Source: a virus
Virus record (IMG/VR): IMGVR_UViG_3300006789_000189
Coordinates: 1 to 22,634 of that record
Strand: one strand, 5' to 3'
Length of the DNA: 22,634 bases
Below, one piece after another: positions 1 to 19,649 of this stretch. The notes below the pieces were generated by a model. The model worked only from the letters and a program-made list of their open reading frames with translations, ran no database searches and had not been told where the DNA came from. The position numbers and the translations under genes are program-made. Every line of letters starts with the position of its first letter. The stretch's first letter is position 1.

Positions 1-47
1 GGTACTCTCTCTTCCGGTAAAAATTTACGATAGGAATTTTCTCCCAC

Positions 48-619: not shown

Positions 620-2355
620 ATCCAGTATATGAAGCCTTTACTGAAGTTATGCGCCCAGGCTCTGAGTTATCAATCGGTGAATGGTTTAGTGAACATGTTA
701 AGGTTGTTGATTCTCCGCACGGTGCAAACTATGATATTAATCAAACTCCCTGGTTTAAGGAAATAGCTGAAGCTGTAGCCGACAACTCTAACGACGAAAT
801 TATAATAGTTGCCCCTGTTGGCTCAGGTAAGACAGCTTTTTTTGAGGCTCTTATCCATTGGATCACCGCGGAAGAACCTGGCTTTACTTTGGTGGCTATG
901 CAGACAGAACAGGACGCCAAGGATCTTTGGGAGACTCGATTAAGTAAGGCGATGCAGCTTTGCCAGCCTATAAATAACCTATGGCCGAAAGACAGAAACG
1001 CTATTAGAAAGGGAGCTGTTATATTTCCTCACATGTCTCTATTAATGGGCGGCGCTAACCTATCACATTTACAATCTAAATCTTGTCGTTGGGTTATCGG
1101 TGATGAGGTATGGTTGTGGAAGTCGGGAATGATAGCTGAGGCCCGCGGTCGTACTCATGACCGGTGGAACGCAAGACTTATCTTTGTTAGTCAAGGAGGT
1201 GATGAAGGAACAGATTGGGATAAGGCATTTTTAGAAACTAATCAGTGTCATTATAGTTGGGAGTGTGAAGAGTGCGGAAAGTTCAATAAATGGAGTCACT
1301 CAAATATACGCTATGAAAAGATACGTGATGAAGATGACCAGTATGACTTTGAAGCCATAAAGAAAAGTGTTTATATGGAATGTCCTCACTGTGAAGCAAA
1401 GTATAAAGACGATGCTACAACGAGACGGAGACTATCAGTAAACAGTAAATACATAGCAGAGAACGAAAAAGCTTTAAAGGTTAATAAGGGATTTACATAT
1501 ACTGATTATGCCGTTTGGTGGAAGCCTTGGAGCAAGTTAGTATTGAGGTGGATTGAAGCAGCTGACGAAATGAAGCGCGGATATATAGACCCAATGAAGA
1601 AGCTAAAACAAAAGAGACTTGCGGAGTTTTGGAAAGATGATTTTGGTGATGTTAAAATTAAACTGATAGCGTCAGACTACAAGAAAACTGACTTTCTTTC
1701 CGGGGAATTGTGGGAGGGTGAAATGTATCGTGTTATTACTGTTGACGTCCAGCGTGATCATTATTGGGTTGTATTGCGAACCTGGAAGGCCGACGGGACA
1801 AGCCGACTAATCTATGAGGGGAAAGTATTAACTGATGAAGTTATTCGAGACATTCAGTTAATGTATAAGGTTCAAGATAAGTTTGTTTTTATGGATGCCC
1901 AATTTGATACAGGCCGGGTTTATGATTACTGTGTTAAATATGGCTGGACTGCTTTACATGGATCGGGTAACGATGGTTTTACGCATACAATAAAGCGCGG
2001 CTCGAAAAAGTTAAGGGTACGAAAATTCTACTCTAAATATGAAATGGCTCAAGCTCCTAATGGTGGCGCGGCCCCTTACATATTTTGGAGTAATGAAAAA
2101 ATTAAAGATGCACTAATGATACTCAGAAGCGGTCAGGGTATGAGCTGGGAAGTGCCAGAAGATATGAGTGAAGATTACAAACATCAAATAGATTCAGAGG
2201 TAAAGCGGGAAGTTATAAACAAAGCTACAGGGCAAGTAACAAAAAGATATGTAAAGATTAAAAAAGACAATCACCTGTTAGATTGTGAGGCTATGCAAGT
2301 TGCAGTGTCAATGATGCTTAATATACTCAAGTCTCCTGAAGAGGAAGTTTTGTAA
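616..2355 (+). CDS. phage terminase large subunit (GpA family)
   Basis: A 579-residue packaging motor protein of the lambda GpA type. It hydrolyses ATP to translocate DNA into the prohead and cuts the DNA with a C-terminal nuclease. A Walker A motif APVGSGKT lies at 66-73, and a Walker B-like stretch ending in GDE lies at 157-164. CxxC pairs at 217/220 and 256/259 look like a zinc knuckle. The C-terminal half has acidic positions typical of the RNase H-like nuclease (D377 in TVDVQRD, D427 in FMDAQFD, and the DNHLLDCE segment at 551-558). The start is TTG at 616, in a TTGA overlap with the previous stop and preceded by AGGAAG at 603-608. The first in-frame ATG (649) would lose 11 residues and has no better ribosome site. 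Confidence 0.93.
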   Translation: MNPVYEAFTEVMRPGSELSIGEWFSEHVKVVDSPHGANYDINQTPWFKEIAEAVADNSNDEIIIVAPVGSGKTAFFEALIHWITAEEPGFTLVAMQTEQDAKDLWETRLSKAMQLCQPINNLWPKDRNAIRKGAVIFPHMSLLMGGANLSHLQSKSCRWVIGDEVWLWKSGMIAEARGRTHDRWNARLIFVSQGGDEGTDWDKAFLETNQCHYSWECEECGKFNKWSHSNIRYEKIRDEDDQYDFEAIKKSVYMECPHCEAKYKDDATTRRRLSVNSKYIAENEKALKVNKGFTYTDYAVWWKPWSKLVLRWIEAADEMKRGYIDPMKKLKQKRLAEFWKDDFGDVKIKLIASDYKKTDFLSGELWEGEMYRVITVDVQRDHYWVVLRTWKADGTSRLIYEGKVLTDEVIRDIQLMYKVQDKFVFMDAQFDTGRVYDYCVKYGWTALHGSGNDGFTHTIKRGSKKLRVRKFYSKYEMAQAPNGGAAPYIFWSNEKIKDALMILRSGQGMSWEVPEDMSEDYKHQIDSEVKREVINKATGQVTKRYVKIKKDNHLLDCEAMQVAVSMMLNILKSPEEEVL

Positions 2356-2385
2356 GTTGACAATTGCTAAAAATTAAAAACTAAG
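2353..2385 (+). promoter_or_regulatory. recurrent GTTGACAAT intergenic element, copy 1
   Basis: Directly at the terminase stop codon begins TAAGTTGACAAT, followed by the A-rich CTAAAAA and TAAAAA blocks and AAGG before the next ATG. TTGACA occupies 2357-2362, and the distance to the start codon at 2395 is 32 bases. Almost the same arrangement recurs at three other gene junctions in the late region. TTGACA equals a consensus -35 box, but no convincing -10 box follows at 16-18 bases, so it is recorded as a regulatory element of unknown mechanism. Confidence 0.5.
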
Positions 2386-2394
2386 GTTAATTAA

Positions 2395-2700
2395 ATGAGT
2401 CTTGGAATACATGACATACGGGCTATAATTCGAGCCTCACAAAGTGACGGCGGAGTCATTCAGGGGAAGTTAACGACAGAGCGAAACGCCTTAGTCCTTG
2501 ATATTGTAGAGAACCCTGAAGCCGGTAAAGAGATTATAAGCGGTTCAGGTAATGGTGTTTCAATGAATGCGTCGGTCACCTATACAAAATCAGACCGTTT
2601 ACAATTTTTAGATAGAGCTTTGTATTATGTTGAAAATGGTATATGGCCTTCTAGTACTTCATGGGCTAGGTTCGGTGGTGGCAATGGGGTGCAATTATGA
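2395..2700 (+). CDS. small head-joining-position protein (gpW-like by position)
   Basis: A 101-residue protein lying between the large terminase and the portal, the slot held by the gpW head-tail joining protein in lambda-like phages. The sequence itself is not diagnostic. A C-terminal helix-like segment (YTKSDRLQFLDRALYYVENG, about residues 63-82) resembles what is seen in such small joining proteins, but I cannot confirm homology. It starts with ATG preceded by AAGG, and its stop overlaps the portal start (ATGA). It is the first gene after copy 1 of the recurrent intergenic element, so it may open a transcription block with the portal and protease. Confidence 0.5.
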   Translation: MSLGIHDIRAIIRASQSDGGVIQGKLTTERNALVLDIVENPEAGKEIISGSGNGVSMNASVTYTKSDRLQFLDRALYYVENGIWPSSTSWARFGGGNGVQL

Positions 2701-4202
2701 GCAGCGGTTTAGTAGATCAATACGGTTACCCGGTATTTGTAGAAAGTAAATTTGCTAAAGCAGCGCAGCAGGGAGTTAATAAACCATTTGAGCGGCAATT
2801 CATTGGTGACATTGACGACCTTATACCATCCTATGACTGGAATACTTTACTTAGTGCTTCCCGGCGTTTATTTACCAATATGGGCATAGTTAAGAGTGCA
2901 ACAATACAAAAAGCGAACTATAGTATCGGGCGTTCATGGAATCCCGTATTCAAGGGCAAAGATAAAGAGTGGGGCAAGTTGGCTGAAGATTGGCTACTTG
3001 AACAGTTCTATCCGGTGTCTGATGTTCGGGGATCTATGTTCGATTTCAAAACAGATTTATATATTGACTCAATTGCCATTGATCGTGATGGGGATTATTT
3101 TATATTACTTACTGAAAGTAAAGACGGCTTTCCACAAACTCAGAGAATACCAGCTCACAGAGTAGGCCAGCGTCAAATAGATGGGGCAGTAATTTCAGGA
3201 CCATTTAAGAAGAAGGGTAACACAATAAAGAACGGTGTTATCTATAATGATGTTGGTCGGCCTATTGCTTATCGCGTTTTAGGTAAAGAAGAAAAAGACG
3301 ATAGAGATATTTCAACGCGAAATCTAATCCATGTTTTCAACCCTAATTGGCACGAACAAGGCCGCGGATTAATGGCGGCTACTCATGCAATTGATAATCT
3401 TTTAAGTTCTGTTAAGTCTGAAGAATACGAACAGATGGCGCAACTAATGTTGTCAAGTATTGGACTAATTGAACATAATGAAATGGGTATGGCCGATGAA
3501 GGTGACCCCGCTAATTTCTTAAGGAATAATACCGATAATGTTGAAAGCGGTTTAACTACTCAAACCTTTTCTGGTGGTTCTGTAAGATACTTTAAGGCTA
3601 ATTCAGGCAGTAAGCTTGAGACCATTAATGTTGACCGTCCGGGTAATGTTTGGGAGTCATACCAAGACAGAGTTGCTCGGCTATTTATTACTGGAATGAA
3701 CTGGAGTTATAGCTTTGTATGGAAGTCAGCAGAGTTGACCGGTACAAGCCAGCGGGCAGAGATTGAGAAAGTTAGGAGGTCTATAGATGATCGTCAGGCT
3801 TTACTTGAACCACCTGCAAGGCGTGTTGTCGGTTATGCAATCGCTAAAGCTCAAAAGCTGGGAATACTACCACCTAATGATGAATGGTGGAAGTGGGGAT
3901 TTACTTTACCGCCTAAGGTTTCTATTGATCCGGGCAAAGATTCTGTTGCTAATCTTAATGAATGGCGAGCAGGAATTAAAAACGTTTCAACTATTCTTTC
4001 TGAGCAAGGTATACAATACGAGGATCATATTCGACAGCGAGCGAATGAAATAGCCGTAAGAAAGAAGATTCAGGAAGAGACAGAAGAAAGAACCGGAATG
4101 CAAATAGATGACCGTGAAATGGCTATGTATACACCTAATGAGATGGCAGAGCCTAAAGAAGATGACCAAGAAGAATCACAACCAACACAGGAAGATAATT
4201 AA
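2697..4202 (+). CDS. phage portal protein (lambda family)
   Basis: A 501-residue protein with the size, gene position and sequence character of lambda-family portal proteins, which form the dodecameric ring at one capsid vertex through which DNA enters and to which the tail connects. Supporting stretches include the N-terminal segment around SRRLFTNMGIVKSATIQ, the DRDGDYFILLTE strand region, and IHVFNPNWHEQGRGLMAATHA-like text in the middle, where portals typically have an R-G-P/L-rich loop. The C-terminus is acidic and low in complexity (many E, D, Q). It overlaps the previous gene by ATGA and ends one base before the protease gene. Confidence 0.9.
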   Translation: MSSGLVDQYGYPVFVESKFAKAAQQGVNKPFERQFIGDIDDLIPSYDWNTLLSASRRLFTNMGIVKSATIQKANYSIGRSWNPVFKGKDKEWGKLAEDWLLEQFYPVSDVRGSMFDFKTDLYIDSIAIDRDGDYFILLTESKDGFPQTQRIPAHRVGQRQIDGAVISGPFKKKGNTIKNGVIYNDVGRPIAYRVLGKEEKDDRDISTRNLIHVFNPNWHEQGRGLMAATHAIDNLLSSVKSEEYEQMAQLMLSSIGLIEHNEMGMADEGDPANFLRNNTDNVESGLTTQTFSGGSVRYFKANSGSKLETINVDRPGNVWESYQDRVARLFITGMNWSYSFVWKSAELTGTSQRAEIEKVRRSIDDRQALLEPPARRVVGYAIAKAQKLGILPPNDEWWKWGFTLPPKVSIDPGKDSVANLNEWRAGIKNVSTILSEQGIQYEDHIRQRANEIAVRKKIQEETEERTGMQIDDREMAMYTPNEMAEPKEDDQEESQPTQEDN

Positions 4203-5003
4203 ATGTACCCCATTATAATGCAGAAAGTATTTTCTGAGCCTTGGCTAATTATACCACAGGCTCATGAGGCAATACAGCAATCTTTACTAAGCCATATTGC
4301 AGCAGCGCCTCAAGTAATGGATAGCTTAGGCAACTCTGGCGAAGGTCACACAGTACAGGCCGGCTCTAATATTGCTTATGTCCAATTATATGGTGTTGTT
4401 GGTAAACACTTGTCAGGTTTAGAAATGGCTTGTGGTGGCTGTAGCTTGGATAAAGTAGCGGCAGAGTTGCAAGCGGCGGCTGATGATCCTTCAATAGATA
4501 AGATCATTCTGGACGTTGACTCACCGGGCGGAACTATTACAGGAGTGCCGGAGTTAGCTCACTTAATAAGAGAGATTAAAGCAAGTAAAGAAATATTTGC
4601 ATTTACAGAAAGAATGATGGGTTCGGCAGCTATGTGGATTGCTTCGGCTTGCTCTGGTATCTTATCAACTCCATCGGCTAAGGTTGGCAGTATTGGCGCT
4701 TATCTGGCTATGGTTGATAACTCCGCCAAGATGGAGAAAGACGGGCAAAAGCTTTTATTATTTGAAGCAGGAGCGCATAAGGCTATAGGGCTTAGACCAC
4801 CGACGGCTGAAGAATCTAAGATGATGCAAGACAGAGTAGAGGCCATTCACGAAGACTTTAAGGCAAGTATTCTTATAGAGCGTCCAAGCGTCCAAGACAG
4901 TACTATGGAAGGACTTGTTTACTCTGGTATAGAAGCTGAAGGTTTAGGCTTAGTTGATGCTGTAGTAATGAGTTTTGATGAAGCACTAAAGGCTATTAGT
5001 TGA
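4203..5003 (+). CDS. S49-family (SppA/ClpP-like) capsid maturation protease
   Basis: A 266-residue serine protease of the S49 signal-peptide-peptidase type, as used by lambda gpC-like proteins to process the prohead. Visible marks are the strand LDVDSPGG (103-110), the nucleophile motif GSAA with Ser141, the following VGSIGAY stretch (161-167), and Lys193 in GAHKAIG. The Ser-Lys spacing of 52 residues matches that of the bacterial SppA Ser/Lys dyad. It likely acts on the scaffold and internal capsid proteins inside the prohead. The ATG follows the portal stop directly, with GGAAG upstream. The gene ends in TGA, which lies inside the TTGACA of the second recurrent intergenic element. Confidence 0.9.
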   Translation: MYPIIMQKVFSEPWLIIPQAHEAIQQSLLSHIAAAPQVMDSLGNSGEGHTVQAGSNIAYVQLYGVVGKHLSGLEMACGGCSLDKVAAELQAAADDPSIDKIILDVDSPGGTITGVPELAHLIREIKASKEIFAFTERMMGSAAMWIASACSGILSTPSAKVGSIGAYLAMVDNSAKMEKDGQKLLLFEAGAHKAIGLRPPTAEESKMMQDRVEAIHEDFKASILIERPSVQDSTMEGLVYSGIEAEGLGLVDAVVMSFDEALKAIS

Positions 5004-5051
5004 CAATTTTAAAATAATGAATAAACATAAAACATAAAAAAGGAATTAAAT
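4998..5051 (+). promoter_or_regulatory. recurrent GTTGACAAT intergenic element, copy 2
   Basis: TTAGTTGACAAT starts at the end of the protease gene, with TTGACA at 5000-5005 overlapping the TGA stop codon. A long A-rich stretch leads to AAGGAA and the ATG at 5052. This copy is the most divergent of the four after the first 12 bases and is about 15 bases longer before the start codon. No good -10 box is seen 16-18 bases downstream. It precedes the scaffold/capsid block, which must be made in large amounts. Confidence 0.45.
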
Positions 5052-5498
5052 ATGTTTTTTAGCAACAAAGATCTTAAGGTTAAGATCGCCTCTCTCGAAG
5101 AGGAAAACAAAGAGTTGAAAGCTCAGGCTGGTTCGCTTGAATCGCTCCAGAGTGACAATGATCGGTTATCTGAAGAATTAGCCACAGCTAGCAGCGCTCT
5201 TGAAGTTGCTAATGCTAAAATTTCAGATCTAGAAAAGGTATCTAGTGAAGCGGCTGACGTGAAAGCTAAAGCTGAAAAGGTAATTGAAGAGCAACCAGCG
5301 AAAGTAGCTGCCGCGGCTTCAGCCACTGTTGCTTCTCTTGGAGTTGATCCAGTTTCTGAAGTTGCCAACGCTGATAGTGTTGAAGGTGTTCAGGTTGATG
5401 AATACGCGTCTTTAGCTAAACAACTTGAGTCTTGTGAATCAGCTTCAGAGCGCGGAAAGATAGCGCAAAAGATGTTACAGATTTTTGAAAATAAATAA
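5052..5498 (+). CDS. coiled-coil scaffold-like protein
   Basis: A 148-residue protein, almost wholly charged and helical. A coiled coil runs from about residue 8 to 80 (ASLEEENKELKAQ onward, with repeated SLESLQSDNDRLSEEL-type heptads), followed by an Ala/Val-rich linker and a short helical C-terminus. Its position between the S49 protease and the major capsid protein is the standard site of a scaffolding protein, which guides shell assembly and is then degraded by the protease. A decoration or capsid-accessory role is the alternative. It is preceded by a strong AAAAAAGGA ribosome site. No enzymatic motif is visible. Confidence 0.6.
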   Translation: MFFSNKDLKVKIASLEEENKELKAQAGSLESLQSDNDRLSEELATASSALEVANAKISDLEKVSSEAADVKAKAEKVIEEQPAKVAAAASATVASLGVDPVSEVANADSVEGVQVDEYASLAKQLESCESASERGKIAQKMLQIFENK

Positions 5499-5522
5499 TA
5501 ATATTTAAAAGGATTAAATAAA

Positions 5523-6452
5523 ATGGCACTAACATTAAACGTACCCGTCTTAATCGCTAAGACACTAGAAGCATACAAACAGAAAGTTCCTATGCTTGGA
5601 GCTATAAGTACAGACTGCAACGACCAAGCAAGCCGTAAAGGTCAGCAGGTAATTGCAAATATTGCTAAGGTTCCAACTGTTGCCGACTTTAACGCTACTC
5701 AAGCAACTAATGCACAAGATGCTAAGACCTTGCTTGAAGATATTCCAGTGACTCTTAACCGCCACCGTGAAAGTGTTATCAAGTGGATTCAGGACGACGT
5801 CGAAAAATCTCAGATTGAGTTACTTAAAGCTATGACCGAGTTAGGCTATGCTATCTCGAAAGATGTTACAGATTACATACTTTCTCAGGCTTTAGCGACT
5901 AACTTTAGTACATCAGTAACTCAAGCAACGCCAGACCGTGCAACTCTTAGAGAAATTACCTCAGCCATGAATGCTAATGGTGCTGGTGATGTTCGTTATG
6001 GTATTGTGAACAGTGATGTTTATGATGATTTAGATAATGATCCTGAAATCACTTCAAGTGACTTCTCTGGTCAGTTACAAGGCGCTAATCCTTGGGGTAC
6101 TCTCGCGAATATCTCAGGCTTTACAAATATCTGGGAATACCCGGACACTCCAGCCAATGGCGAAAACATGACCGGTGTTTTCTTTGATCCGACGGCTTTT
6201 GTTTTGTCTTCTCGTCCTATGGTTCTAAATCAAAACATGGCTTCAGCTCTTGGTATTCCTCTCCAGTCTAAAGTTGATGTTGTTTCAGATCCTACTACCG
6301 GCATGACTTTCACCGCTTTCACTTGGCAGAGTAATACTAGCTTTGATATCTATACAAAGCTTGTTGTTCTCTATGGTGTTTCAGCTGGTAAAGCTACAGG
6401 CAGTGCTGGTGACCTTACTGACTTCGGCGGATGTCTTCTTAAAAGCGTTTAA
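5523..6452 (+). CDS. major capsid protein
   Basis: A 309-residue protein in the major capsid position, directly after the scaffold candidate and with an AAAAGGATT ribosome site. The content fits a coat protein: an N-terminal helical segment, a middle stretch with ESVIKWIQDDVEKSQIELLK, a typical RYGIVNSDVYDDL-like strand-helix segment, and a C-terminal part rich in G, T and aromatic residues (TFTAFTWQSN). Length and composition agree with an HK97-like fold without a large N-terminal delta domain, consistent with a separate scaffold gene. Family assignment rests on position and general character, not on a signature motif. Confidence 0.75.
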   Translation: MALTLNVPVLIAKTLEAYKQKVPMLGAISTDCNDQASRKGQQVIANIAKVPTVADFNATQATNAQDAKTLLEDIPVTLNRHRESVIKWIQDDVEKSQIELLKAMTELGYAISKDVTDYILSQALATNFSTSVTQATPDRATLREITSAMNANGAGDVRYGIVNSDVYDDLDNDPEITSSDFSGQLQGANPWGTLANISGFTNIWEYPDTPANGENMTGVFFDPTAFVLSSRPMVLNQNMASALGIPLQSKVDVVSDPTTGMTFTAFTWQSNTSFDIYTKLVVLYGVSAGKATGSAGDLTDFGGCLLKSV

Positions 6453-6462
6453 GGAGTAGGTT

Positions 6463-6750
6463 ATGAATCGTCATATTATAATTGGATTCAAGAAAGGAGC
6501 TTCTTTTAAAAGTGATCTAGGTGATGTTATTGGCATTGCCGAGAATCTTAAAGAAGCTAAAGCCCAAGCGGCCAAAGCCATAAAGGCCAAAGATTCTAAA
6601 GTTGAGTATTGTACAATAGTTAACGGAAAGAAGCCTTGCGCTAAAGTTGGCAATAGATCTAATGTTAAATCATCCGTTAAGGTTGTCGGCATTGAGGTCA
6701 TGAAAGCTGAACAGACTAAAGCTAAAGTGGCTGAAGCTAAAAAGAAATAA
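6463..6750 (+). CDS. small Lys/Ala-rich protein downstream of the capsid gene
   Basis: A 95-residue basic protein of unrecognised family. It has a short strand-like start (MNRHIIIGFKKG), an Ala/Lys-rich helix (about residues 28-43) and a strongly basic C-terminus ending in AKVAEAKKK. It follows the capsid gene by 10 bases with a good AAGGAG ribosome site and is followed at once by a strong terminator, so it is probably co-expressed at high level with the capsid. A capsid-bound, DNA-interacting or decoration role is conceivable but unsupported by any motif. Confidence 0.6.
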   Translation: MNRHIIIGFKKGASFKSDLGDVIGIAENLKEAKAQAAKAIKAKDSKVEYCTIVNGKKPCAKVGNRSNVKSSVKVVGIEVMKAEQTKAKVAEAKKK

Positions 6751-6775
6751 GAGCCAACCTCCTTTGGTTAGTTTG

Positions 6776-6811
6776 AGCCCTTTTAAGTTAATTCTTAGAA
6801 GGGCTTTTTTT
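6776..6811 (+). terminator. rho-independent terminator after the capsid block
   Basis: AGCCCTTTTAAG (6776-6787) pairs with CTTAGAAGGGCT (6794-6805) over 12 positions with one G-U pair. The loop is TTAATT, and the hairpin runs straight into seven T residues. This is a textbook intrinsic terminator in the rightward sense. It stands between the capsid genes and the head-completion/tail genes, so it should limit read-through and raise capsid-to-tail expression. Confidence 0.9.
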
Positions 6812-6825
6812 ATAAGGTGAATATT

Positions 6826-7161
6826 ATGAATATGTTAAATGACTTTTTAAGCGCTGGATTAACAGAGGTTATGCCAATTATAGGCAATGACAAAACCTTG
6901 ACTTATGAAGGGGATGACATTCAGGGCGTTTTTAATGAGAAACAACTTGGTAGTGAATTAGACTTTGCCGGCAAGCTTGTCACTCATGAAACGAGCTTTT
7001 TAGTACCTCAGAATCTAATAGATGCAGCTGGTATTACATTTAGTAAAGATAATCAATGTACTGTAGATGGACGAACTTGGAAGATTGCAAGGATTATAGA
7101 TGGTCCAGTTTCAACTACTCTAATGTTAGAGGACCCCAATGCCACAAAAGTACCACTCTAA
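6826..7161 (+). CDS. head-tail connector-position protein, unrecognised
   Basis: A 111-residue protein right after the terminator. I chose the ATG at 6826 because AAGGTG ends six bases upstream. The frame is open to an in-frame GTG at 6817, but that codon lies inside this ribosome site. The C-terminal half (CTVDGRTWKIARIIDGPVSTTLMLEDPN) resembles the beta-rich ends of small head-closure or stopper-type proteins, and the gene lies between capsid and tail-completion genes. Function is inferred from position only. Its end overlaps the start of the next gene by 23 bases. Confidence 0.6.
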   Translation: MNMLNDFLSAGLTEVMPIIGNDKTLTYEGDDIQGVFNEKQLGSELDFAGKLVTHETSFLVPQNLIDAAGITFSKDNQCTVDGRTWKIARIIDGPVSTTLMLEDPNATKVPL

Positions 7162-7924
7162 AATAAATATAAATGACCTTGAATTGTCTAAAGAGTTTAG
7201 GCAGTTTGATAGGGGAATCCAGCGACTAATAAAAGAGACTGAAAAGGATTCTAAAGAGGTTTTGATTTCTCAGGCTCGCTTGTTTTGTGTTGATTTGGTA
7301 CATGTTACACAGCCGTGGGGAAGGGGTAAGAAAGCCCAAAGATTAGGGCAAGGGGCGGTCAGTAGAGATATAAACAAAGTTTACTTGACTGAAAGCGATT
7401 TGTATGGATTGATTAAGCAGCACAGCATAGACCAGGCGAAAGCATTTTATTACAATGTCAAGAATGGTAATTTTGATGAGGCTGACAAGATAGCTAGAAC
7501 TGTAAATATAGACATAAGTCATTTTGACGGAGGGAGAAAACACAGAAATTCAAGAAATAATAGAGGGAGAGTATCGCCTGGTGTTCGTGGAACTTTCTCA
7601 CCTAAAAAAGATTTAGATAAATATACCAATGAAGTTAAAAACCGTGTTGGCTTTGCCAAATCTGGTTGGTCAGATTGTGCTAAAGAGCTTGGAGGTACAA
7701 GAGGTATACCGGCATGGATTAAAAACCAAGGTGGTGATATGGGACAAGTTAAGAAGAAATTTGTAGGTAGTTCGCTTGAAATAATACTAATTAACAAGGT
7801 TAAGTATATCGGTAAGCTTGTTGACAATTACCATATTAAAAAGGCGGCTGGCTCAAGAGCCAGAGCAATAGAGCGCCTAATTAAAAAGGTTGTAGAGATT
7901 AACGCTAAGAAGAGTTTGGAATAA
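7139..7924 (+). CDS. minor tail / head-completion protein, unrecognised
   Basis: A 261-residue basic protein (many K and R) with helical N- and C-terminal parts and a Gly/Arg/Asn-rich centre (GGRKHRNSRNNRGRV, about residues 131-145). The position between the connector-like and tail-terminator-like genes corresponds to the tail-completion or gpZ-like minor tail slot of lambdoid phages. The ATG at 7139 is used despite the 23-base overlap because GAGGA sits six bases upstream. The gene contains another GTTGACAAT at 7820, about 100 bases before the next gene, without the full A-rich continuation. Confidence 0.55.
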   Translation: MPQKYHSKININDLELSKEFRQFDRGIQRLIKETEKDSKEVLISQARLFCVDLVHVTQPWGRGKKAQRLGQGAVSRDINKVYLTESDLYGLIKQHSIDQAKAFYYNVKNGNFDEADKIARTVNIDISHFDGGRKHRNSRNNRGRVSPGVRGTFSPKKDLDKYTNEVKNRVGFAKSGWSDCAKELGGTRGIPAWIKNQGGDMGQVKKKFVGSSLEIILINKVKYIGKLVDNYHIKKAAGSRARAIERLIKKVVEINAKKSLE

Positions 7925-8379
7925 TGCCGACAGCGACACCACTAAAGAAGAGAATAGAGGACTTAATTGAAACTGTTATACAAGCACAGTTTACAAATGA
8001 TTCTTTGACTTGTGCGACTTTAAAGGGACATGATCAAGGAGATAAGCCAGCTTTACCTTACTTGTTAATAGTTTGTGAATCTGTGCCGAATAATCCAGAG
8101 TTTCCAACTACAGCCGGCGTTAAGTCTGCTAATGTTATTCTTTCCATGGTCTCTAATGTTAATGAAGATACGGAAAGTGTCATTGACGCTTGTTTACAGT
8201 CGTCTAATTGCGCCATGGAAGACACGTCGGCAATGCAAACAGAAGCGGCGGCAAATTATCCAGATGTATTTATTCATGAGTTCGAGTTTAGTGATTCAAA
8301 CACAGATAGAGATCAAGAGAATTTTCAATACGATTTTAATATCTATACAGGTGTTTTGGAATATATAGACGTTCCATAA
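7924..8379 (+). CDS. tail terminator-position protein
   Basis: A 151-residue protein. It begins with an amphipathic helix (PLKKRIEDLIETVIQAQF), followed by a strand ALPYLLIVCES and alternating strand/helix segments, ending in a beta-like FQYDFNIYTGVLEYIDVP. This layout and size fit the small tail-terminator family (gpU-like), which caps the tail tube and joins it to the head. It starts in a TAATG overlap with the previous gene and lies just before the tube candidate. No signature motif was recognised, so the assignment is positional. Confidence 0.5.
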   Translation: MPTATPLKKRIEDLIETVIQAQFTNDSLTCATLKGHDQGDKPALPYLLIVCESVPNNPEFPTTAGVKSANVILSMVSNVNEDTESVIDACLQSSNCAMEDTSAMQTEAAANYPDVFIHEFEFSDSNTDRDQENFQYDFNIYTGVLEYIDVP

Positions 8380-8381
8380 TT

Positions 8382-8413
8382 AGTTGACAATCTAAAAATA
8401 ATAAAAAATAAGG
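8382..8413 (+). promoter_or_regulatory. recurrent GTTGACAAT intergenic element, copy 3
   Basis: AGTTGACAAT directly follows the tail-terminator gene, with TTGACA at 8384-8389. It continues with CTAAAAATAATAAAAAATAAGG and reaches the ATG at 8421 after 31 bases, nearly the same spacing as copies 1 and 4. The A-rich blocks CTAAAAA and TAAAAA align with those copies. It opens the block of the tail-tube candidate, another high-copy structural protein. Confidence 0.5.
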
Positions 8414-8420
8414 TAATATT

Positions 8421-8762
8421 ATGGCAGCACAGACATTCGGTACAGCACATTTATTTGGAGTAGCGGGAACAATCGGAGACGCTACAGTTATGAGCTTTTC
8501 AGACGGCGCTAGTTTTGCACTTGCAGACGAAACAAAAAACGAAAGTGGCGTGACTATTGAAAGACATTATAATGACCGGCAAAATGACGTATCAATTAGC
8601 ATCAAAATGCAATCAGCATATACTAAACCTGCCCAAGGTGATACGCTTACGTATAATGGTGTTACTTATGAGATTGTAAGCACTTCAGAGTCGCAAGAAA
8701 ATCAAGGTTTTAGAGTATTCGAGCTGACTATGAAGAAATCAGAAGGGATAACATACCCTTAA
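8421..8762 (+). CDS. tail tube candidate
   Basis: A 113-residue protein predicted to be mainly beta, with segments such as VTIERHYNDRQNDVSISIKMQ and FRVFELTMKK and a repeated pattern of turns. Small beta-rich proteins between the tail terminator and the pre-tape-measure gene are usually the tail tube subunit, although this one is shorter than many. It stands directly behind copy 3 of the recurrent intergenic element with an AAGG ribosome site, as expected for a protein needed in many copies. Identification is by position and size only; a second connector or stopper is possible. Confidence 0.45.
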   Translation: MAAQTFGTAHLFGVAGTIGDATVMSFSDGASFALADETKNESGVTIERHYNDRQNDVSISIKMQSAYTKPAQGDTLTYNGVTYEIVSTSESQENQGFRVFELTMKKSEGITYP

Positions 8763-8773
8763 TAGGTGGATTA

Positions 8774-9406
8774 ATGGAAACCTTTTACCAGTCTTTTTTG
8801 CCGCCTGTTGTATCGATATGCGGGTATAAATTAAATGAATTTAGTTATAATCATTTAACTATATTGAGAGCGATTAAAAGCCCCTTTACTGATGCTGGTG
8901 AAAGGGGACTTGCTACTTCAGCTGATTTAATTATTGCCTTAAAGGTTTGTTCTGGAAAATATCCTGATAAAGATTTTACCTTTACAAGGAAAGATAGATT
9001 AAGAGCTTTTATATTAGGCCGTCAAAGAGCCAGGCTAATAACTGAGTGCATTAATTTTAGCGCTTATATATCTTGCCACCAGCAGGGCCCAGAATTTTGG
9101 GAGTTTAAAGATAAGGGTTGGACTCCTGCAAGTTCTCCAGATGAATTGTCCACTGTTGCATTGTTAATTAAAAACAATATAGAGCATGGTGAGGCGTGGA
9201 ATATGTCTATAGGTTATGCAAATTGGTTAAGCGCGGTCATTTTAGAGCAGGCCGGGAACCCACGGGTTTTTGTTAATGATGACAATGATGACACGATAAA
9301 TTTAAACTCATTACCTGAAGAAGAAGTAGTAAATATTGCAAAAGAAAACTTGCCACCAGATAGATTTAAACAATGGCTTAAAGCCAGAAAAGAAAGGGGC
9401 GCGTAA
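8774..9406 (+). CDS. pre-tape-measure protein (tail assembly chaperone position)
   Basis: A 210-residue, mostly helical protein directly before the tape measure gene, where tail assembly chaperones (lambda gpG/gpGT) are found. The sequence has no motif I can name. It is acidic near the C-terminus (NDDNDDTINLNSLPEEE) and ends in a basic helix. No slippery sequence or second overlapping frame was noticed, so a gpG/gpGT-type programmed frameshift is not supported here. It begins with ATG after AGGTGG, and its TAA overlaps the ATG of the tape measure gene (TAATG). Confidence 0.45.
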   Translation: METFYQSFLPPVVSICGYKLNEFSYNHLTILRAIKSPFTDAGERGLATSADLIIALKVCSGKYPDKDFTFTRKDRLRAFILGRQRARLITECINFSAYISCHQQGPEFWEFKDKGWTPASSPDELSTVALLIKNNIEHGEAWNMSIGYANWLSAVILEQAGNPRVFVNDDNDDTINLNSLPEEEVVNIAKENLPPDRFKQWLKARKERGA

Positions 9407-10629
9407 TGGCCTTTAAAGTACCATTTGGGATAGATAGCAGCAAGTTTAAAGCTGGCTTAAAAGATATGCGGGCAGGCGTAAAAGAGTTTGGCAAAAAGGT
9501 TGAGGGGGATTTAACATCAGGTAATAGAGGCTTTTTGAAGGCGGCTGGCAATATTGGTTTAGTCACAGCTGCTTTAACTGGTGCAATTGGCGCGGTTGGC
9601 TTACTGGCAAGACGCGGTATAGCTATGGGTAATAACATAAGTAATCAAGCAGCTGAGGCAAAAACAAGCGTTGAAGGGTTACAAGTTGCATTAAATCTTG
9701 GTGAAGATGCAGGCGCACAGAGCGAACAGGTTGTTGCAGCTCTAAAGAATATCAATACTAGAGCGGTAGATGCGGCGAACGGAGCTAAACAATATCAAGA
9801 AGCTTTGGCCCGGTTAAATATAGACTCTCAAAAGTTTAAAGATTTAGCGAGTGAACGAAAGCTTGAAGCGGTCGCTAAGGGCTTTGTAAATGCTGAAGAT
9901 GAAGCACAAGCTTATAGAGATATATTAACCTTGCTTGGTGAAGATGCAGGCCCGAAACTTATTAAAGTTCTAGAGGAACTTGGGGCATCTGGATTCGACA
10001 CGCTTAACGCTAAAATGAAGGAGTCAGGCCGAATAATCGAAAAAGACGTTATAGAACAGATTGACGAAGCGGCCAAAGCTTTTAATAAACTTCAAAAATT
10101 TATTGATACTCAGTCAGCAAAAGGCGCTGGCAATCTTGCGTCTTTGCTTGGCTTTGGAACAAAAAGAGATAAAGAGCTATTAACAGCAGAGTTAGCCGAT
10201 ATGATGACATTTGGAATCGCTGACTTTACAGGGATAGTTTTAGAAAAAGTAGGAAAACAAGAAGATTTAAGGGTAAAAACAGAGGTCGAGAATAGAAAGA
10301 GCGAAGCTAGAATAGCGGAAATAGATAAAGAAATAGCAAGGTTGGAATCTCTTTCACCCGAGAATAAAGCGAAGCGTGAAAAAATACAGAAAGATAAAGC
10401 GTTCAATGAAGGAATATTTGGTAAGTTTATAAAACCTCAAAAAGAAAAAGGCTTTCAGGGTGTGCCTGTGTCTTCTCTTCAATCTATCGGCGGTGGCGGG
10501 GCTGTTGGTGGTGTTAATAGGGTTGTTGGTATGGATATAAAAAGAAACACTTTACTTGAACAGATTGTTAAAAATACCTCTGAAAATAATGACGGTGCGG
10601 GGGATTCTACCGGCGCAAGGTTAGGATAA
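9406..10629 (+). CDS. short tape measure protein
   Basis: A 407-residue protein with the features of a tape measure. It has an N-terminal basic helical region, a hydrophobic segment at about 47-68 (GNIGLVTAALTGAIGAVGLLA), and long helices including the phrase SEQVVAALKNINTRAVDAA. A segment near residues 135-200 (LASERKLEAVAKGFVNAED, then LLGEDAGPKLIKVLEELG) has the usual tape-measure pattern of alternating helices ahead of a GPKL-type stretch. A coiled coil (about 285-330) and a Gly-rich C-terminus follow. It is short for this family. At the generally used 0.15 nm per residue it would set a tail of about 60 nm. Confidence 0.7.
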   Translation: MAFKVPFGIDSSKFKAGLKDMRAGVKEFGKKVEGDLTSGNRGFLKAAGNIGLVTAALTGAIGAVGLLARRGIAMGNNISNQAAEAKTSVEGLQVALNLGEDAGAQSEQVVAALKNINTRAVDAANGAKQYQEALARLNIDSQKFKDLASERKLEAVAKGFVNAEDEAQAYRDILTLLGEDAGPKLIKVLEELGASGFDTLNAKMKESGRIIEKDVIEQIDEAAKAFNKLQKFIDTQSAKGAGNLASLLGFGTKRDKELLTAELADMMTFGIADFTGIVLEKVGKQEDLRVKTEVENRKSEARIAEIDKEIARLESLSPENKAKREKIQKDKAFNEGIFGKFIKPQKEKGFQGVPVSSLQSIGGGGAVGGVNRVVGMDIKRNTLLEQIVKNTSENNDGAGDSTGARLG

Positions 10630-10632
10630 ATT

Positions 10633-11331
10633 ATGGCTAAAGTTACACATGGATCAAAAACAAATACTTTACAGCTCCAACCTGGATGGACTTTGGTTAA
10701 TCACTTTGATCAAACAATTACGGGCACGGGCGTTTTTAAAGTTGATAAAGATAAGGCTTTCACTAATCCACCAAGAATAGGCGACCCACACCCATTTAAT
10801 GGCGATGTAAGAGTTATTAATTTCTCTCTATCTGGTGGGGCCTTACAATATGAGTATTCAGTACAGTATTTCGGGCTTCAGGCTTCCCCGACAAAATCAA
10901 TATATAGTTACTATACCTCTCTATCCGAGGAGCCGATAGAAACACATCCAGATTTTAAAACCTTTGGCGGTACGGCTGACGCACCAGGACCGGGGGCCGT
11001 TTTTGACTCTGTGACTAAATTATTTGAAGGCTTTAATGATCTGGCTCCACAAGATTTAATAGGTGGGCGCGGTTATTTGACTGGTCAAGGATCTATTAGG
11101 CGCACATTTTATACTACTAGTGTCTTTACTGGCATGGAAGATATAACGACCACAAGAGAGCTAAAAGAAGGCGTTGTCCCTGGTGTGTCTGAAGCTCAGA
11201 ATGTACTAAAGACAAATTGGTCTAGTGAATTAATAGGTAATAACTTTTACAGAGTTACAGAAGAATATCTATTAAGTGGTAGTGCTGGATGGAGTGAAAC
11301 AATATACGAGAGTTCCGGAAATGTCGAGTAA
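10633..11331 (+). CDS. tail protein, unrecognised (distal-tail position)
   Basis: A 232-residue protein after the tape measure, rich in beta-forming residues, Gly, Thr and aromatic residues, with no motif I recognise. Its place suggests a distal-tail or baseplate component linking tube and tip. The ATG at 10633 follows the tape measure stop by three bases with AAGGTTAGGATAAATT upstream. The C-terminus (GSAGWSETIYESSGNVE) overlaps the start of the next gene by 11 bases. Confidence 0.55.
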   Translation: MAKVTHGSKTNTLQLQPGWTLVNHFDQTITGTGVFKVDKDKAFTNPPRIGDPHPFNGDVRVINFSLSGGALQYEYSVQYFGLQASPTKSIYSYYTSLSEEPIETHPDFKTFGGTADAPGPGAVFDSVTKLFEGFNDLAPQDLIGGRGYLTGQGSIRRTFYTTSVFTGMEDITTTRELKEGVVPGVSEAQNVLKTNWSSELIGNNFYRVTEEYLLSGSAGWSETIYESSGNVE

Positions 11332-11722
11332 TAACCCTTATAGGACAGACCCTTTTAAAAGAAATGATCGTTTAACGGCGGCACATCTAGAGACTTTAAG
11401 AGATGGTACAAGTTCGAATATACAGCTAAGGAACCCGGATAACTTTGTCAAAAGATACCCTAACGGTCATATATTGACTAGTAAAAAAAAGTCTAAAGGC
11501 GGTGCACAGAGACCGTATATAATCATTACAACAGCGACTGACGAAAATAATTATATAGGTGATGTCATAAAACCTACTGACGCGACGGTGATAAAGAGCG
11601 GCGTAACTATTAAGGCTTTACAGCCTAGCGGTGGCGGGGCTTTGCCAATTGGTACAGAGTTTTTTGCTGATTTTGCTGATGATGTTTATTACATACAGCC
11701 AGCCGTATTTTACGGGACGTAG
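11321..11722 (+). CDS. small tail-tip protein, unrecognised
   Basis: A 133-residue protein beginning MSSNNPYRTDPFKRNDRLTA. I place the start at the ATG at 11321. The longer GTG start at 11276 would overlap the preceding gene by 56 bases and adds residues that look like shadow translation. The sequence contains a short basic segment (KKKSKGGAQRPY) and a Gly-rich turn, and is probably mostly beta at the C-terminus. It lies in the row of tail-tip genes between the tape measure and the fibre. The function is unknown. Confidence 0.55.
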   Translation: MSSNNPYRTDPFKRNDRLTAAHLETLRDGTSSNIQLRNPDNFVKRYPNGHILTSKKKSKGGAQRPYIIITTATDENNYIGDVIKPTDATVIKSGVTIKALQPSGGGALPIGTEFFADFADDVYYIQPAVFYGT

Positions 11723-11726
11723 TTAA

Positions 11727-13004
11727 ATGGCAGATACAAAATGGTTGGACCCTGAAAACTGGACTCTTGCAGATTGGGAAGATGATACTTTAACCGTTAT
11801 AGTAAGTGCTTTATGGGATACCCTGAAGGGCGCTTCTGACGAAAGACAGGCTTTTATTGAACAAGAGTTTTCAGCCAGTTTTAATACTGACAATGAATTC
11901 CCTGACTTTAACCAGCTTATGAGCATATTTTTATCTGGTGGGGCAGTTACTCCCAATGATTCGGACAGGATTGAAAACGCTTTAAATAATACAAGCGGAA
12001 CTTATTTTGATTTTGTAAAAACAGATACACTAGCCGCTAATGGGACAACTGTAGTCGATTCCGTAAGGGCAGATTATATAAGTCTATCTGATATGCTAAC
12101 GGATGTCTTCGGTTATAGCACAGGAACTCTTTTACATGTATTAGACACTTTAAGCGGCAACCGAAATGCCATATTAAAAATGGCATGGGTAAAGCAATGG
12201 TACGAGGTTTTGAATTATACGCAGTATTATGCGAGACAAATAATAAATGTTACAGATGACTTTTTTTCAGAAATTCAAACTCAAGCCACAGCATTAACAG
12301 TTATATATACTACTAATAATGTCTTAGGGACATTAAATAGAGCTAATGCAAATTACACCAATCCACCTAATCCGCTAATAGATTTATACGTCGCTAATGA
12401 CTTAAACGAGACAGCGCCATTTTCTACACCACAGGAAGTTTATGACTACACAGAACTAACTTTTAGCGGTCAGGCATCCGGCGCGGACTGGGAGACAGTT
12501 ACAGACGTAAGGAGTTATATTGTTGCTAGCCATGCGGGCATGAATATAGAATTACCAGTTACAGGAGCTGAAACAAAATACACGTCAGGTATATCAAGGA
12601 CTAGAATTAGATTTAAAGTAACAGACAATAAAAGAGCCTTATCTCCTAATACATATATTTCAGTACTTAAACAATATTTATTTTTAATAGAGTCGGCAAC
12701 TAATACATTTAATGATTTCAATATTGGTTTAAATGAGCGAGAGACAAACCTTTTCACACTGAGTCCAGATGGTAGCGATTATTACTATCTTGAGCAAACT
12801 ACACAGCCAGATTTTACTCTTTTCACAGTTCCGCCTTATCCGGCTACAGATGGAACTACAGAGAATAACGGCGAAGGTTATAGACAATTCTCGTTGAATG
12901 AAAATACTAATGTTACAACTCCGGTACTTGGAAGTAATTTTACAGATATATTAATAGAGGCTAATAATTCAGACGGAACATCATTTGAATATTATAGTCC
13001 ATAA
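11727..13004 (+). CDS. large tail/baseplate protein, unrecognised
   Basis: A 425-residue acidic protein of unrecognised family. The N-terminal part is aromatic and acidic (KWLDPENWTLADWEDDTLTV). The middle is helical (about 150-215), and the C-terminal half is rich in Asn, Thr and Tyr with beta character, ending in NNSDGTSFEYYSP. No catalytic motif was seen. It sits immediately before the tail fibre gene and could be the adaptor that holds the fibre on the tail tip, or a host-contact protein itself. It is followed at once by copy 4 of the recurrent intergenic element. Confidence 0.55.
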   Translation: MADTKWLDPENWTLADWEDDTLTVIVSALWDTLKGASDERQAFIEQEFSASFNTDNEFPDFNQLMSIFLSGGAVTPNDSDRIENALNNTSGTYFDFVKTDTLAANGTTVVDSVRADYISLSDMLTDVFGYSTGTLLHVLDTLSGNRNAILKMAWVKQWYEVLNYTQYYARQIINVTDDFFSEIQTQATALTVIYTTNNVLGTLNRANANYTNPPNPLIDLYVANDLNETAPFSTPQEVYDYTELTFSGQASGADWETVTDVRSYIVASHAGMNIELPVTGAETKYTSGISRTRIRFKVTDNKRALSPNTYISVLKQYLFLIESATNTFNDFNIGLNERETNLFTLSPDGSDYYYLEQTTQPDFTLFTVPPYPATDGTTENNGEGYRQFSLNENTNVTTPVLGSNFTDILIEANNSDGTSFEYYSP

Positions 13005-13042
13005 GTTGACAATCCCTAAAAAGTAAAAAAAAATGGTACACT
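13003..13042 (+). promoter_or_regulatory. recurrent GTTGACAAT intergenic element, copy 4
   Basis: TAAGTTGACAAT starts at the stop codon of the preceding tail gene (TTGACA 13006-13011), followed by CTAAAAA and a long A run. The ATG of the fibre gene is 31 bases after the hexamer. Unlike the other copies, no clear AAGG ribosome site precedes the start; TACACT at 13037-13042 resembles a -10 box but lies 25 bases from TTGACA, too far for a normal pair. Confidence 0.5.
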
Positions 13043-14983
13043 ATGAGTTTTAAAAAACAATTATGGATAAACACGGACACAAGACAATTAGTTCAAGGTT
13101 TTTTACAGAGTTTAGCCGAAACAAACATAACTTTTACACAGGGTGACACAGTACCATTAAACATATATTTACTTAAGCAGCTAACAAACAATCAAGGCCG
13201 CCCATTTCAAAATATTGAGCTCACAAATGAAACTTTAAAGGTGGCATTGGGACGACTTGACGAAAAAGCCACAGGGGGAACTTTTACGCTTTCCTTTGAT
13301 GGAGATGACACAGGCGCATTACCTTATAATGATTCATCATCTAATATTGATACCGCCTTAAATGCGTTAACGTCTGTTATTGCAGCCGGTGGCGTTATTG
13401 TCTCTGGTGATGATTCCGGACCATGGACAGTTACTTTTAATAACGATGGGGCGCGGTCTTCAATTATGGCTGATGCCGCTTCAGTTACTCCGTTATCTGA
13501 TTTAATAGTGACAACGGTTACGGAGGGAGACGGCAGTACTCAAGAAGTCCAGGTACTTAAGTTAAAAGAATCTCCTGTAGCGGTACAATCCACCTTTACA
13601 ATAATCGCATCTCCAACAATTGCAGTTACAGAAGTGATAGAAGGTGCTTCGGGTATTAATGAAATCCAGAAAGTGAAGATTGATCAAGTTTGTCAAGACG
13701 GTAGTTTTACATTGAGTTTTGATAGTTCCTCAGCTGTTATAAATTACGGCTCAAGAGCTGACCAAGTAGTTACCGCTCTTGAATCTACAGCGGGGATATC
13801 TTCAGGAGATGTCGCAGTTCAAAAGCTTTCTGACATTGAATATAATATCACTTTTACCGGATCACTTGCAGGAGCACCGCAAAGCTTAATTATTGCAGAC
13901 TCTTCTGGCTTAATTGGTTTTTCAGGTTTTGAGGCAGATTTGAATCTCGGTAGTTATGCCGTTGAGCAATTATTAAACGGACTAGATCAAAATGAAGAAG
14001 CTGTCTTTGAGGTTGAATTAAATTTATCGGGTGATAAAACAACAGTTTTAAAAATACCTGCAATCTTACAAAATGATCTAATCGACGAAAGTGTAACGAC
14101 TCCACCTAATAACGGTATAGACTGGGACGCACTATTAGCCGAAAAGGTTACCGGGCCAGCTTCAGCCGTTGAGGATAATTTATTATTATTTGATGGGACA
14201 ACGGGCAAGCTTGTTAAAGATAGCGGCGTAAATATAACAACTTTTACTGATTCATTAGCCGAAAAGGTTACCGGGCCAGCTTCGGCAATTGATGGCAATA
14301 TTTCAACTTTTGACGCTACGACAGGTAAACTAATAGAAGATAGTGGTGTAAATATATCGGCGGTCAATGCTAATACTGCCAAGGTTACTAATGCAACCCA
14401 CAGTGGCGACGCTAGTGGAGATACTACTTTAACACTTGCTACAGTTAACGCCAATGTGGGCAGCTTTACAAATTCTAATATCACAGTTAATGCAAAGGGT
14501 TTAATCACCTCCGCGTCGAATGGAACAAGTGGGGCTATATCAATCGCAACTTACCAAGACCAAAAAGCAAGTGGCACGGCGGGCGGGTCAAGCGTTACAG
14601 GAGTACAGACCAGAACCATAAATACTGAAGTTTCTGACGTTGACAATATAGCTACTTTGTCAGCCAATGCTATTACGCCAATTGCGGGTAGGTATTTAGT
14701 AATTGCCACATCACCAGCTAACCGCTCAAATGATCATAGAATTTATTTACATGACGGCACAAGCAATGTTTTACAGGGTGTTAATGCTTATAATGGAGGC
14801 GGTTATATTGTACAGACGTCTAGTACAATATGGGGATATATAAGTACGGCAGGTTCAACGGCTTACACAATAGAACATGAAATAAATAGATATCAAGCAA
14901 CTAATGGCCTTGGGCAGGCTGTAACCGATGGAAATTCTGAAATATACACTCAGGTAACTTTAATTAGATTAGGAGATCAATAA
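13043..14983 (+). CDS. modular tail fibre / receptor-binding protein
   Basis: A 646-residue fibre protein. The N-terminus (1-70) probably attaches to the tail. Two related beta modules follow at about 75-160 and 215-300, both containing a FTLSFD strand. Two 40-residue repeats begin at 364 and 404, each with AEKVTGPASA and an FD.TTGKL..DSGVN segment. Then comes the common fibre shaft motif HSGDASGDTTLTL...VNANVGSF...TVNAKGLI (453-491). The last about 145 residues resemble a C1q/TNF-like jelly-roll head found at phage fibre tips (YQDQKASGTAGG, RTINTEVSD, and EHEINRYQATNGLG). The head is expected to trimerise and bind the host surface. No ribosome site is obvious upstream. Confidence 0.85.
   Translation: MSFKKQLWINTDTRQLVQGFLQSLAETNITFTQGDTVPLNIYLLKQLTNNQGRPFQNIELTNETLKVALGRLDEKATGGTFTLSFDGDDTGALPYNDSSSNIDTALNALTSVIAAGGVIVSGDDSGPWTVTFNNDGARSSIMADAASVTPLSDLIVTTVTEGDGSTQEVQVLKLKESPVAVQSTFTIIASPTIAVTEVIEGASGINEIQKVKIDQVCQDGSFTLSFDSSSAVINYGSRADQVVTALESTAGISSGDVAVQKLSDIEYNITFTGSLAGAPQSLIIADSSGLIGFSGFEADLNLGSYAVEQLLNGLDQNEEAVFEVELNLSGDKTTVLKIPAILQNDLIDESVTTPPNNGIDWDALLAEKVTGPASAVEDNLLLFDGTTGKLVKDSGVNITTFTDSLAEKVTGPASAIDGNISTFDATTGKLIEDSGVNISAVNANTAKVTNATHSGDASGDTTLTLATVNANVGSFTNSNITVNAKGLITSASNGTSGAISIATYQDQKASGTAGGSSVTGVQTRTINTEVSDVDNIATLSANAITPIAGRYLVIATSPANRSNDHRIYLHDGTSNVLQGVNAYNGGGYIVQTSSTIWGYISTAGSTAYTIEHEINRYQATNGLGQAVTDGNSEIYTQVTLIRLGDQ
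14134..14283. repeat. 30-bp perfect direct repeat in the fibre gene (120-bp period)
   Basis: The 30 bases at 14134-14163 recur without change at 14254-14283. They encode the LAEKVTGPASA part of the two 40-residue fibre modules. Outside the perfect block the two modules are similar only at the protein level, so the identical stretch points to recent duplication or gene conversion, or to purifying recombination at that spot. It is a likely site for module loss or gain. Confidence 0.85.
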
Positions 14984-16305: not shown

Positions 16306-16478
16306 AGATTCTCTTCTTATCCTTGGTTATATTCCTTTCCTCTTGTACGATGACTGTAAAAAGCCCCGCGACTCAAATAGAGTATACAGGGGCTATATCA
16401 GAAAAGGGCATTTCAATCACTGCCGTTCCGCCGTTCTGGAAGTGGGCTGTTGACCTTTATAGTCACCTCTCTCAATAG
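16302..16478 (+). CDS. small outer-membrane spanin-like lipoprotein (Rz1-like)
   Basis: A 58-residue protein with a lipoprotein signal peptide, MKILFLSLVIFLSSC, with lipobox L-S-S-C at residues 12-15. Processing would leave a peptide of about 44 residues anchored by Cys15, containing a Pro-rich segment and ending in WKWAVDLYSHLSQ. Together with the overlapping upstream coiled-coil gene this fits an o-spanin of a two-component spanin. It implies a Gram-negative host. The frame is too short to be picked up by simple length filters. Its last 62 bases overlap the end of the CII-like gene on the other strand. Confidence 0.7.
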   Translation: MKILFLSLVIFLSSCTMTVKSPATQIEYTGAISEKGISITAVPPFWKWAVDLYSHLSQ

Positions 16479-16878
16479 CTGCAAACAAAGCCTGAACTAT
16501 CGCGCTACAGTCGGCCCATTCCTTTTTAATCTTTTTATACTCCGCTTCAGTCACTTTTCCATCAAGTAAGCTTTCAGCTAAGACATTCATTAACTCTGTG
16601 AATTCTTTCAGTAATGCCGGGATAACAGTGAAATCAGAAGCGCCTAATCTCTTCACGTCCCGGAAGAAAAAACCGTCTTGACTTGCTGCCAGGTATTGTA
16701 TAATCCTGTCGCCGTCTTCAGCATTCATGAAACCGATTACCTTGTCAAGCATAGAGTGTTTTGCCCGTCCGTCAATTTCGCGAACTACGGTATTTCTATG
16801 ACAACCTATATTAAACGCGATCTCTTTTATATTGCGCTCTGACGTTTCTTTTAATAGCTTCTGGTGTTCTTTATTCAT
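16417..16878 (-). CDS. CII/CP76-like phage regulatory protein
   Basis: A 153-residue protein that begins with a helix-turn-helix region (roughly residues 15-33, SERNIKEIAFNIGCHRNTV) and continues with SMLDKVIGFMNAEDGDRIIQYLA and GFFFRDVKRL. This resembles the phage regulatory CII (CP76) family. The rest is helical. It would bind DNA and control lysogeny- or replication-related genes. It is the last gene of the leftward operon, overlaps the upstream nuclease gene by 4 bases, and its 3' end overlaps the lipoprotein gene on the plus strand. A regulator at the far end of the operon, exposed to antisense transcription from the late region, is unusual. Confidence 0.6.
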   Translation of the reverse strand: MNKEHQKLLKETSERNIKEIAFNIGCHRNTVVREIDGRAKHSMLDKVIGFMNAEDGDRIIQYLAASQDGFFFRDVKRLGASDFTVIPALLKEFTELMNVLAESLLDGKVTEAEYKKIKKEWADCSAIVQALFAAIERGDYKGQQPTSRTAERQ

Positions 16879-19570: not shown

Positions 19571-19599
19571 ATTATATTGCCGTTGTGGAGGTATTGCAA
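19571..19599 (-). promoter_or_regulatory. leftward promoter of the recombination operon
   Basis: Read on the minus strand, TTGCAA (19599-19594) is followed after exactly 17 bases by TATAAT (19576-19571). This is a near-consensus sigma-70-like promoter, with the first gene's start about 35 bases downstream of the -10 box. The -35 box is preceded by AC (ACTTGCAA), the same octamer as the opposing promoter, and the spacer contains CTCCACA. Confidence 0.75.
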
Positions 19600-19649
19600 G
19601 TCCATTAAACACTAAATTCAAAATAAATGTAGAAAAAAGTAGAATACAC

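Follow-up and report, generated by a model that had tools for sequence, protein, structure and literature searches.

The E. coli trp promoter is of the sigma70 type and combines a consensus -35 box with a weak -10 box (TTGACAATTAATCA). T4-type late promoters are recognized by the motif TATAAATA, and leaderless phage transcripts are known from Thermus phage P23-45. Little is known about how phages of Verrucomicrobiota, some of which have few Shine-Dalgarno (SD) sites (PMC10783764), control their late genes. Phage transcripts are frequently leaderless (PMC5312081). For the cultured Verrucomicrobia phage P8625 (PMC4642752), a term search indicated that the paper mentions neither promoters nor intergenic elements.

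The window analyzed here (22,634 nt; IMG/VR record IMGVR_UViG_3300006789_000189) runs from the late into the early region of a tailed phage, with genes for terminase, portal, protease, capsid, and tape measure, and carries GTTGACAAT at four gene junctions. As with T4-type late promoters, several late blocks each have their own copy of one short motif; TATAAATA itself was found three times in the window, which equals the chance expectation, and at none of the four junctions. Like sigma70-type promoters, the elements have TTGACAAT at -35 and a 17-bp spacing to a weak, predicted -10 box, and in relatives, the A at the second -10 position is the most conserved. They differ from such promoters in matching TATAAT at only three or four of six positions in the window, in a predicted start at most 3 nt from the ATG, and in extra conserved A-rich blocks in the spacer. 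Leaderless phage transcripts also start at or adjoining the start codon, which is predicted here, but AAGG lies upstream in copies 1 and 3, and copy 2 is leadered. Finally, in P8625, TTGACA precedes the ATG by 36 nt in both the gpW and the fibre position, within a broadly similar gene order, but this phage harbors GTATCC-N7-GGATAC, lacks the CTAAAAA blocks, and has no copy before the capsid gene.

The element recurs at late gene junctions of the window

The late genes are tightly packed, leaving five gaps of at least 30 nt in all. Four of the five contain GTTGACAAT, against an expectation of 0.0008 to 0.0016, confirming that the four intergenic elements described in the initial annotation are real; the fifth gap (6751-6825) holds a terminator-like hairpin and no GTTGACAAT. 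In the whole window, six exact copies were found versus 0.15 expected from dinucleotide shuffles, none of 100 of which reached six. The two further copies are intragenic and lie outside the element set (Table 1). The hexamer TTGACA, whose first T served as the coordinate in the initial annotation (2357, 5000, 8384, and 13006), matches the -35 consensus exactly in all copies and lies 38, 52, 37, and 37 nt from the ATG in copies 1 to 4, respectively.

Placement at stop codons, as annotated initially, was also found: TAA directly precedes copies 1 and 4, copy 2 includes the TGA of the protease gene, and copy 3 begins 3 nt past a TAA. Overlap with the stop codon was rejected as a rule, since only some of the upstream genes end at the TGA within TTGACA. 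The A-rich blocks likewise held up, with CTAAAAA and a second A-tract in copies 1, 3, and 4; copy 2 is A-rich only.

Table 1. Coordinates of the elements and associated features (window numbering unless stated otherwise)
Feature	Position	Strand	Basis	Details
Copy 1, element	2356..2394	+	sequence	TTGACA 2357-2362; A-rich spacer
Copy 1, weak -10	2380-2385	+	predicted	ACTAAG; spacer 17; +1 at ~2392
Copy 1, downstream ATG	2395	+		head-joining/gpW-position gene, then portal
Copy 2, element	4999..5051	+	sequence	TTGACA 5000-5005, overlapping TGA stop of protease gene
Copy 2, -10-like	5023-5028	+	predicted	AAACAT; +1 at ~5035
Copy 2, SD in leader	5039-5044	+	leader predicted	AAAGGA; leader of 17 nt
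Copy 2, downstream ATG	5052	+		scaffold-position gene, then capsid
Copy 3, element	8383..8420	+	sequence	TTGACA 8384-8389; ATG 8421, tail-block gene
Copy 3, -10-like	8407-8412	+	predicted	AATAAG; +1 at ~8419
Copy 4, element	13005..13042	+	sequence	TTGACA 13006-13011; ATG 13043, fibre-position gene
Copy 4, -10-like	13029-13034	+	predicted	AAAAAT; +1 at ~13041
Intragenic GTTGACAAT	7820..7828	+	sequence	Val-Asp-Asn codons; outside element set
Intragenic GTTGACAAT	14639..14647	+	sequence	fibre-position gene, Val-Asp-Asn codons; outside element set
Intrinsic-terminator-like hairpin	6775..6806	+	consensus scan	after capsid block; window hit count not above chance
GTATCC-N7-GGATAC in P8625 (L135)	5426, 8089, 9634, 10750, 11267, 15573, 17515			often between TTGACA and ATG

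The element is kept in a full-length copy and in a sister phage

An IMG/VR contig of 33,530 bp (G001) matches the window and is identical to it wherever compared. It carries GTTGACAAT seven times in forward and never in reverse orientation, all on the late strand. One of these, at 30650, is a fifth intergenic copy; it comes immediately after a terminator-like hairpin, and the gene that follows encodes a superinfection-immunity domain. Since G001 continues through the run of GACAAAGAACAA repeats that ends the window inside a gene (22595-22634), the window end is probably the break of a shorter assembly. The presence of GGTACTCTCTCT both at window positions 1 to 12 and at the end of G001 (L134 17510-17531) suggests a circular or circularly permuted genome. 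The fibre-position gene contains an imperfect 103-bp direct repeat (14134-14356; 76% identity).

Only one close sister, L215, was found (portal 59% and terminase 62% identical), and a terminase search for further ones returned L215 alone, besides the phage itself. Absence of the element from the same junctions in relatives, named in the initial annotation as grounds for refuting it, was not observed in this phage: GTTGACA is kept at all four junctions (2563, 5160, 8402, and 13121), and one more copy lies before terS. At the second junction the leader is longer and an SD site is also present, and at the third the ATG is 48 nt away. Common to the window and L215 copies are GTTGACAAT-n-CTAARAA and another A-tract.

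TTGACA lies about 36 nt before late genes in P8625-type relatives

The portal and terminase of P8625 are 32 and 23% identical to those of the window. TTGACA was found at two of the corresponding junctions, namely, 36 nt before gp08, which occupies the position of the copy 1 gene adjoining portal (5412), and 36 nt before gp22, the homolog of the gene after copy 4 (15558). It also precedes gp15 and gp31; at gp07, it lies 35 nt ahead of an upstream ATG that is in frame, and the site at 22406 directly follows a terminator-like sequence. In P8625-type relatives, TTGACA is found at -36/-37 at the copy 1 junction, and the counterpart of copy 3 sits one gene further upstream. Akkermansia phage Moulinsart showed no comparable TTGACA sites at the corresponding junctions.

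Relatives were gathered through portal alignment and comprised 49 contigs from IMG/VR and a single contig of an Opitutae MAG; a DNA-pattern scan of IMG/VR was rejected, the matches listed being mostly due to chance. In an unbiased count, all hexamers were tallied by their distance to candidate start codons (638 nonredundant starts, window phage included). Among the P8625-type contigs and the window, the top-ranked combination was TTGACA at -34 to -38 (27 of 64 occurrences versus 3.8 expected). At 28 nonredundant junctions from P8625-type relatives, window copies included, matches to TATAAT peaked at a spacer of 17 (mean, 3.04 versus 2.05 in shuffled sequences; 0 of 5,000 shuffles reached this value), although such shuffle-based statistics overstate the support because the junctions are related by descent. 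The second -10 position was an A in 75% of these junctions (37% when shuffled), and A+T reached 96 and 89% at -12 and -11 before the ATG, compared to 54 and 59% at other starts of the same phages. In a looser -35/-10 search, predicted leader lengths peaked at 0 to 3 nt (18 in these four positions), and a weak peak at 0 nt persisted after exact TTGACA was excluded. Terminators immediately upstream were only slightly enriched (2 of 28 versus 10 of 298), which counts against a promoter. At the MCP gene and other late genes of the P8625-type loci, we also observed AACCAA about 14 nt before the ATG at 9 nonredundant starts, and AATATT directly before the ATG at 14, of which the window phage has two. 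P8625 seems to have few SD-like sites.

The elements as probable late promoters

Judged from sequence, the element is real, conserved, phage-specific, and late. This part of the initial annotation, which had proposed that late expression is partitioned either by late promoters of a family specific to the phage or by an element acting after transcription, stood, given the same junctions in L215 and partly in P8625 and the fixed start distances across dozens of related contigs; as between promoter and RNA element, the evidence is mixed. We lean toward the four elements being late promoters of one phage-specific family, with confidence that is only moderate because of the placement at -20 in other relatives described below. 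The weak -10 at a spacer of 17 in the -36 group favors a promoter. The earlier statement that no proper -10 follows TTGACA needs amending, since weak boxes lie at this spacer in all four copies (ACTAAG, AAACAT, AATAAG, and AAAAAT). Also in line with a promoter, the fifth intergenic copy of G001 and the P8625 site at 22406 come straight after terminator-like sequences. A standard promoter scan passed copy 4 alone (TTGACA-17-AAAAAT; 10 of 12 positions), and as a whole it gave 62 hits, not clearly above the 52 expected (standard deviation, 7.5).

The RNA polymerase of the host, carrying the main sigma factor, would read the consensus -35 (TTGACA, extended to GTTGACAAT) together with the weak -10 at 17 bp, and the weakness of the latter could plausibly impose dependence on a late phage-encoded activator bound at the A-rich spacer. 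Each element would open one block: head joining/portal, scaffold/capsid, tail tube, or fibre. At copies 1, 3, and 4, only 2 to 3 nt separate the predicted +1 from the ATG, so that the mRNA would be near leaderless; the spacing of TTGACA to ATG (35 to 38 nt) likewise predicts a leader of 0 to 3 nt. At copy 2, transcription would start 17 nt before the ATG, leaving an SD site in the leader. An SD-like AAGGA sits in the extra leader where the ATG is farther off, namely, in copy 2 and at junctions 2 and 3 of L215; copy 4 has no clear SD. The sequences show the elements, their placement and conservation at the same junctions, and the -35/-10 geometry of the P8625-type group; from these features we infer transcription from the elements, their start sites, late timing, the activator, and leaderless translation. 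Further observations argue against a promoter. In copies 1 and 3, AAGG is found at SD distance but upstream of the predicted start, so that transcripts of this kind would not use it. The -10 boxes are poor in the window and in L215 alike, and the conservation between the two phages lies in CTAARAA and the A-tract inside the spacer, not in the -10.

TTGACA lies about 20 nt before late genes in other relatives and prophages

A different placement, TTGACA(T/C)C at -19 to -22, was found in most other portal relatives, largely 37 to 49% identical to the window, and in Verrucomicrobiota prophages (match in 19 of 388 genomes). In this set, 20 of 43 occurrences fell at -19 to -22, compared to 2.0 expected, and counting TTGACG and GTG starts, 59 nonredundant sites of the -20 type were collected. 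They have no -10 and no SD, their spacer is C-rich, and they stand before many single late genes, in one case before each of two successive genes. In phage G425 (33 kb), seven late genes but none of the early ones have such a site upstream, on the late strand only. Instances 19 to 22 nt before late starts, TTGACATC or TTGACACC, were noted in L341 (3565, 3864, 8083, 10868, 12252, 13937, and 17388) and in prophage loci L286 to L300. The start codons after the -20 sites look genuine, because differences in the gpW-gene codons beyond them are mostly synonymous. In about 1.2 Mb sampled from four Verrucomicrobiota chromosomes, all with a portal match, TTGACA at -20 was absent and no clear peak was seen at -36, which rules against host-wide use. 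When 52 genomes from the order were compared by a gene-blind pattern search, leaderless spacing was matched more often than leadered spacing, a result to which we give no weight.

At -19 to -22, TTGACA is too near the start to be the sigma70 -35 box of a transcript carrying that codon. As the terL/head-joining junction holds TTGACA in both the -20 and the -36 group, either the hexamer there belongs to two distinct signals or a single signal acts unconventionally. Of the two placements, the one at -20 in other Verrucomicrobiota phages is the more surprising. A tentative broader reading is that tailed phages of Verrucomicrobiota, but not host chromosomes, share a start signal specific to late genes, TTGACA(N)C/TTGACAAT, fixed at about -20 or about -36; it would constitute a new late-expression code, read at the RNA level by a phage factor or by a modified, -10-less RNA polymerase.

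Somewhat doubtful, in our view, is an RNA-level late element, in which UUGACA in late mRNA, at about -20 in most such phages and about -36 in the group of the window, would be recognized by a phage or host factor or by the ribosome and would set translation or processing of chosen late cistrons. The -20 sites before many late genes, with their C-rich spacer and neither -10 nor SD, their late-only use in G425, their absence at -20 from the four sampled chromosomes, and the single hexamer at the terL/head-joining junction of both groups all speak for it. It fits poorly with the -36 group, where a -10 signature occurs at exactly the right spacer and leaders peak at 0 to 3 nt, and -36 is outside the usual ribosome footprint. 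Moreover, no general structure emerged (mean z, -0.39 and -0.31 versus 0.07 and 0.10), no Rfam match was found at the junctions, and an RNA hairpin or translational operator as a general rule was rejected when hairpins spotted by eye around some starts failed across the sets.

Candidate regulators and other control signals

No sigma factor encoded by the phage was identified. Two genes are candidates for late regulators, judged by sequence only: one for a 253-aa HTH protein just upstream of terS (L134 16639-17397; phrog_7061, E 1e-4), with a homolog in L215 (42% identical), and one for a CII-like protein (window 16420-16878; phrog_101, E 1e-4). The predicted structure of the HTH protein was unusable (pLDDT 41). 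In P8625, the late-region palindrome GTATCC-N7-GGATAC (eight matches versus 0.49 expected) is likely the operator of a late regulon, and its position adjoining several TTGACA sites suggests DNA-level control there; it has no match in the window, even with up to two mismatches. The window also harbors back-to-back sigma70 sites at 19571-19678, TTGCAA-N17-TATAAT (-) and TTGCAA-N17-TATACT (+), likely divergent early promoters, which differ from the late elements by good -10 boxes and longer leaders.

The element could also be the binding site of a late regulator rather than a core promoter, transcription starting elsewhere and the bound protein gating elongation or read-through. The window/L215 conservation running through the spacer (GTTGACAAT-n-CTAARAAt-AAAAA), the palindrome at related junctions of P8625, and the HTH gene upstream of terS are in line with this proposal. 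We nevertheless consider it unlikely: the tight start-codon spacing in relatives is unexpected for a remote binding site, and the hexamer exactly equals the -35 consensus. Coincidence or coding constraint fits two of the six exact copies, which are plain Val-Asp-Asn codons, but is excluded for the element set by four intergenic copies against about 0.002 expected and by conservation at the same junctions in a phage with a terminase only 62% identical.

Implications for phages of Verrucomicrobiota

A motif that marks late blocks makes late operons predictable from sequence and names specific start sites for mapping. The second placement, at -20, ranks first in relatives and prophages but is unseen there in the sampled host chromosomes; it poses a defined question, namely, whether it concerns the start of late mRNAs or their translation.
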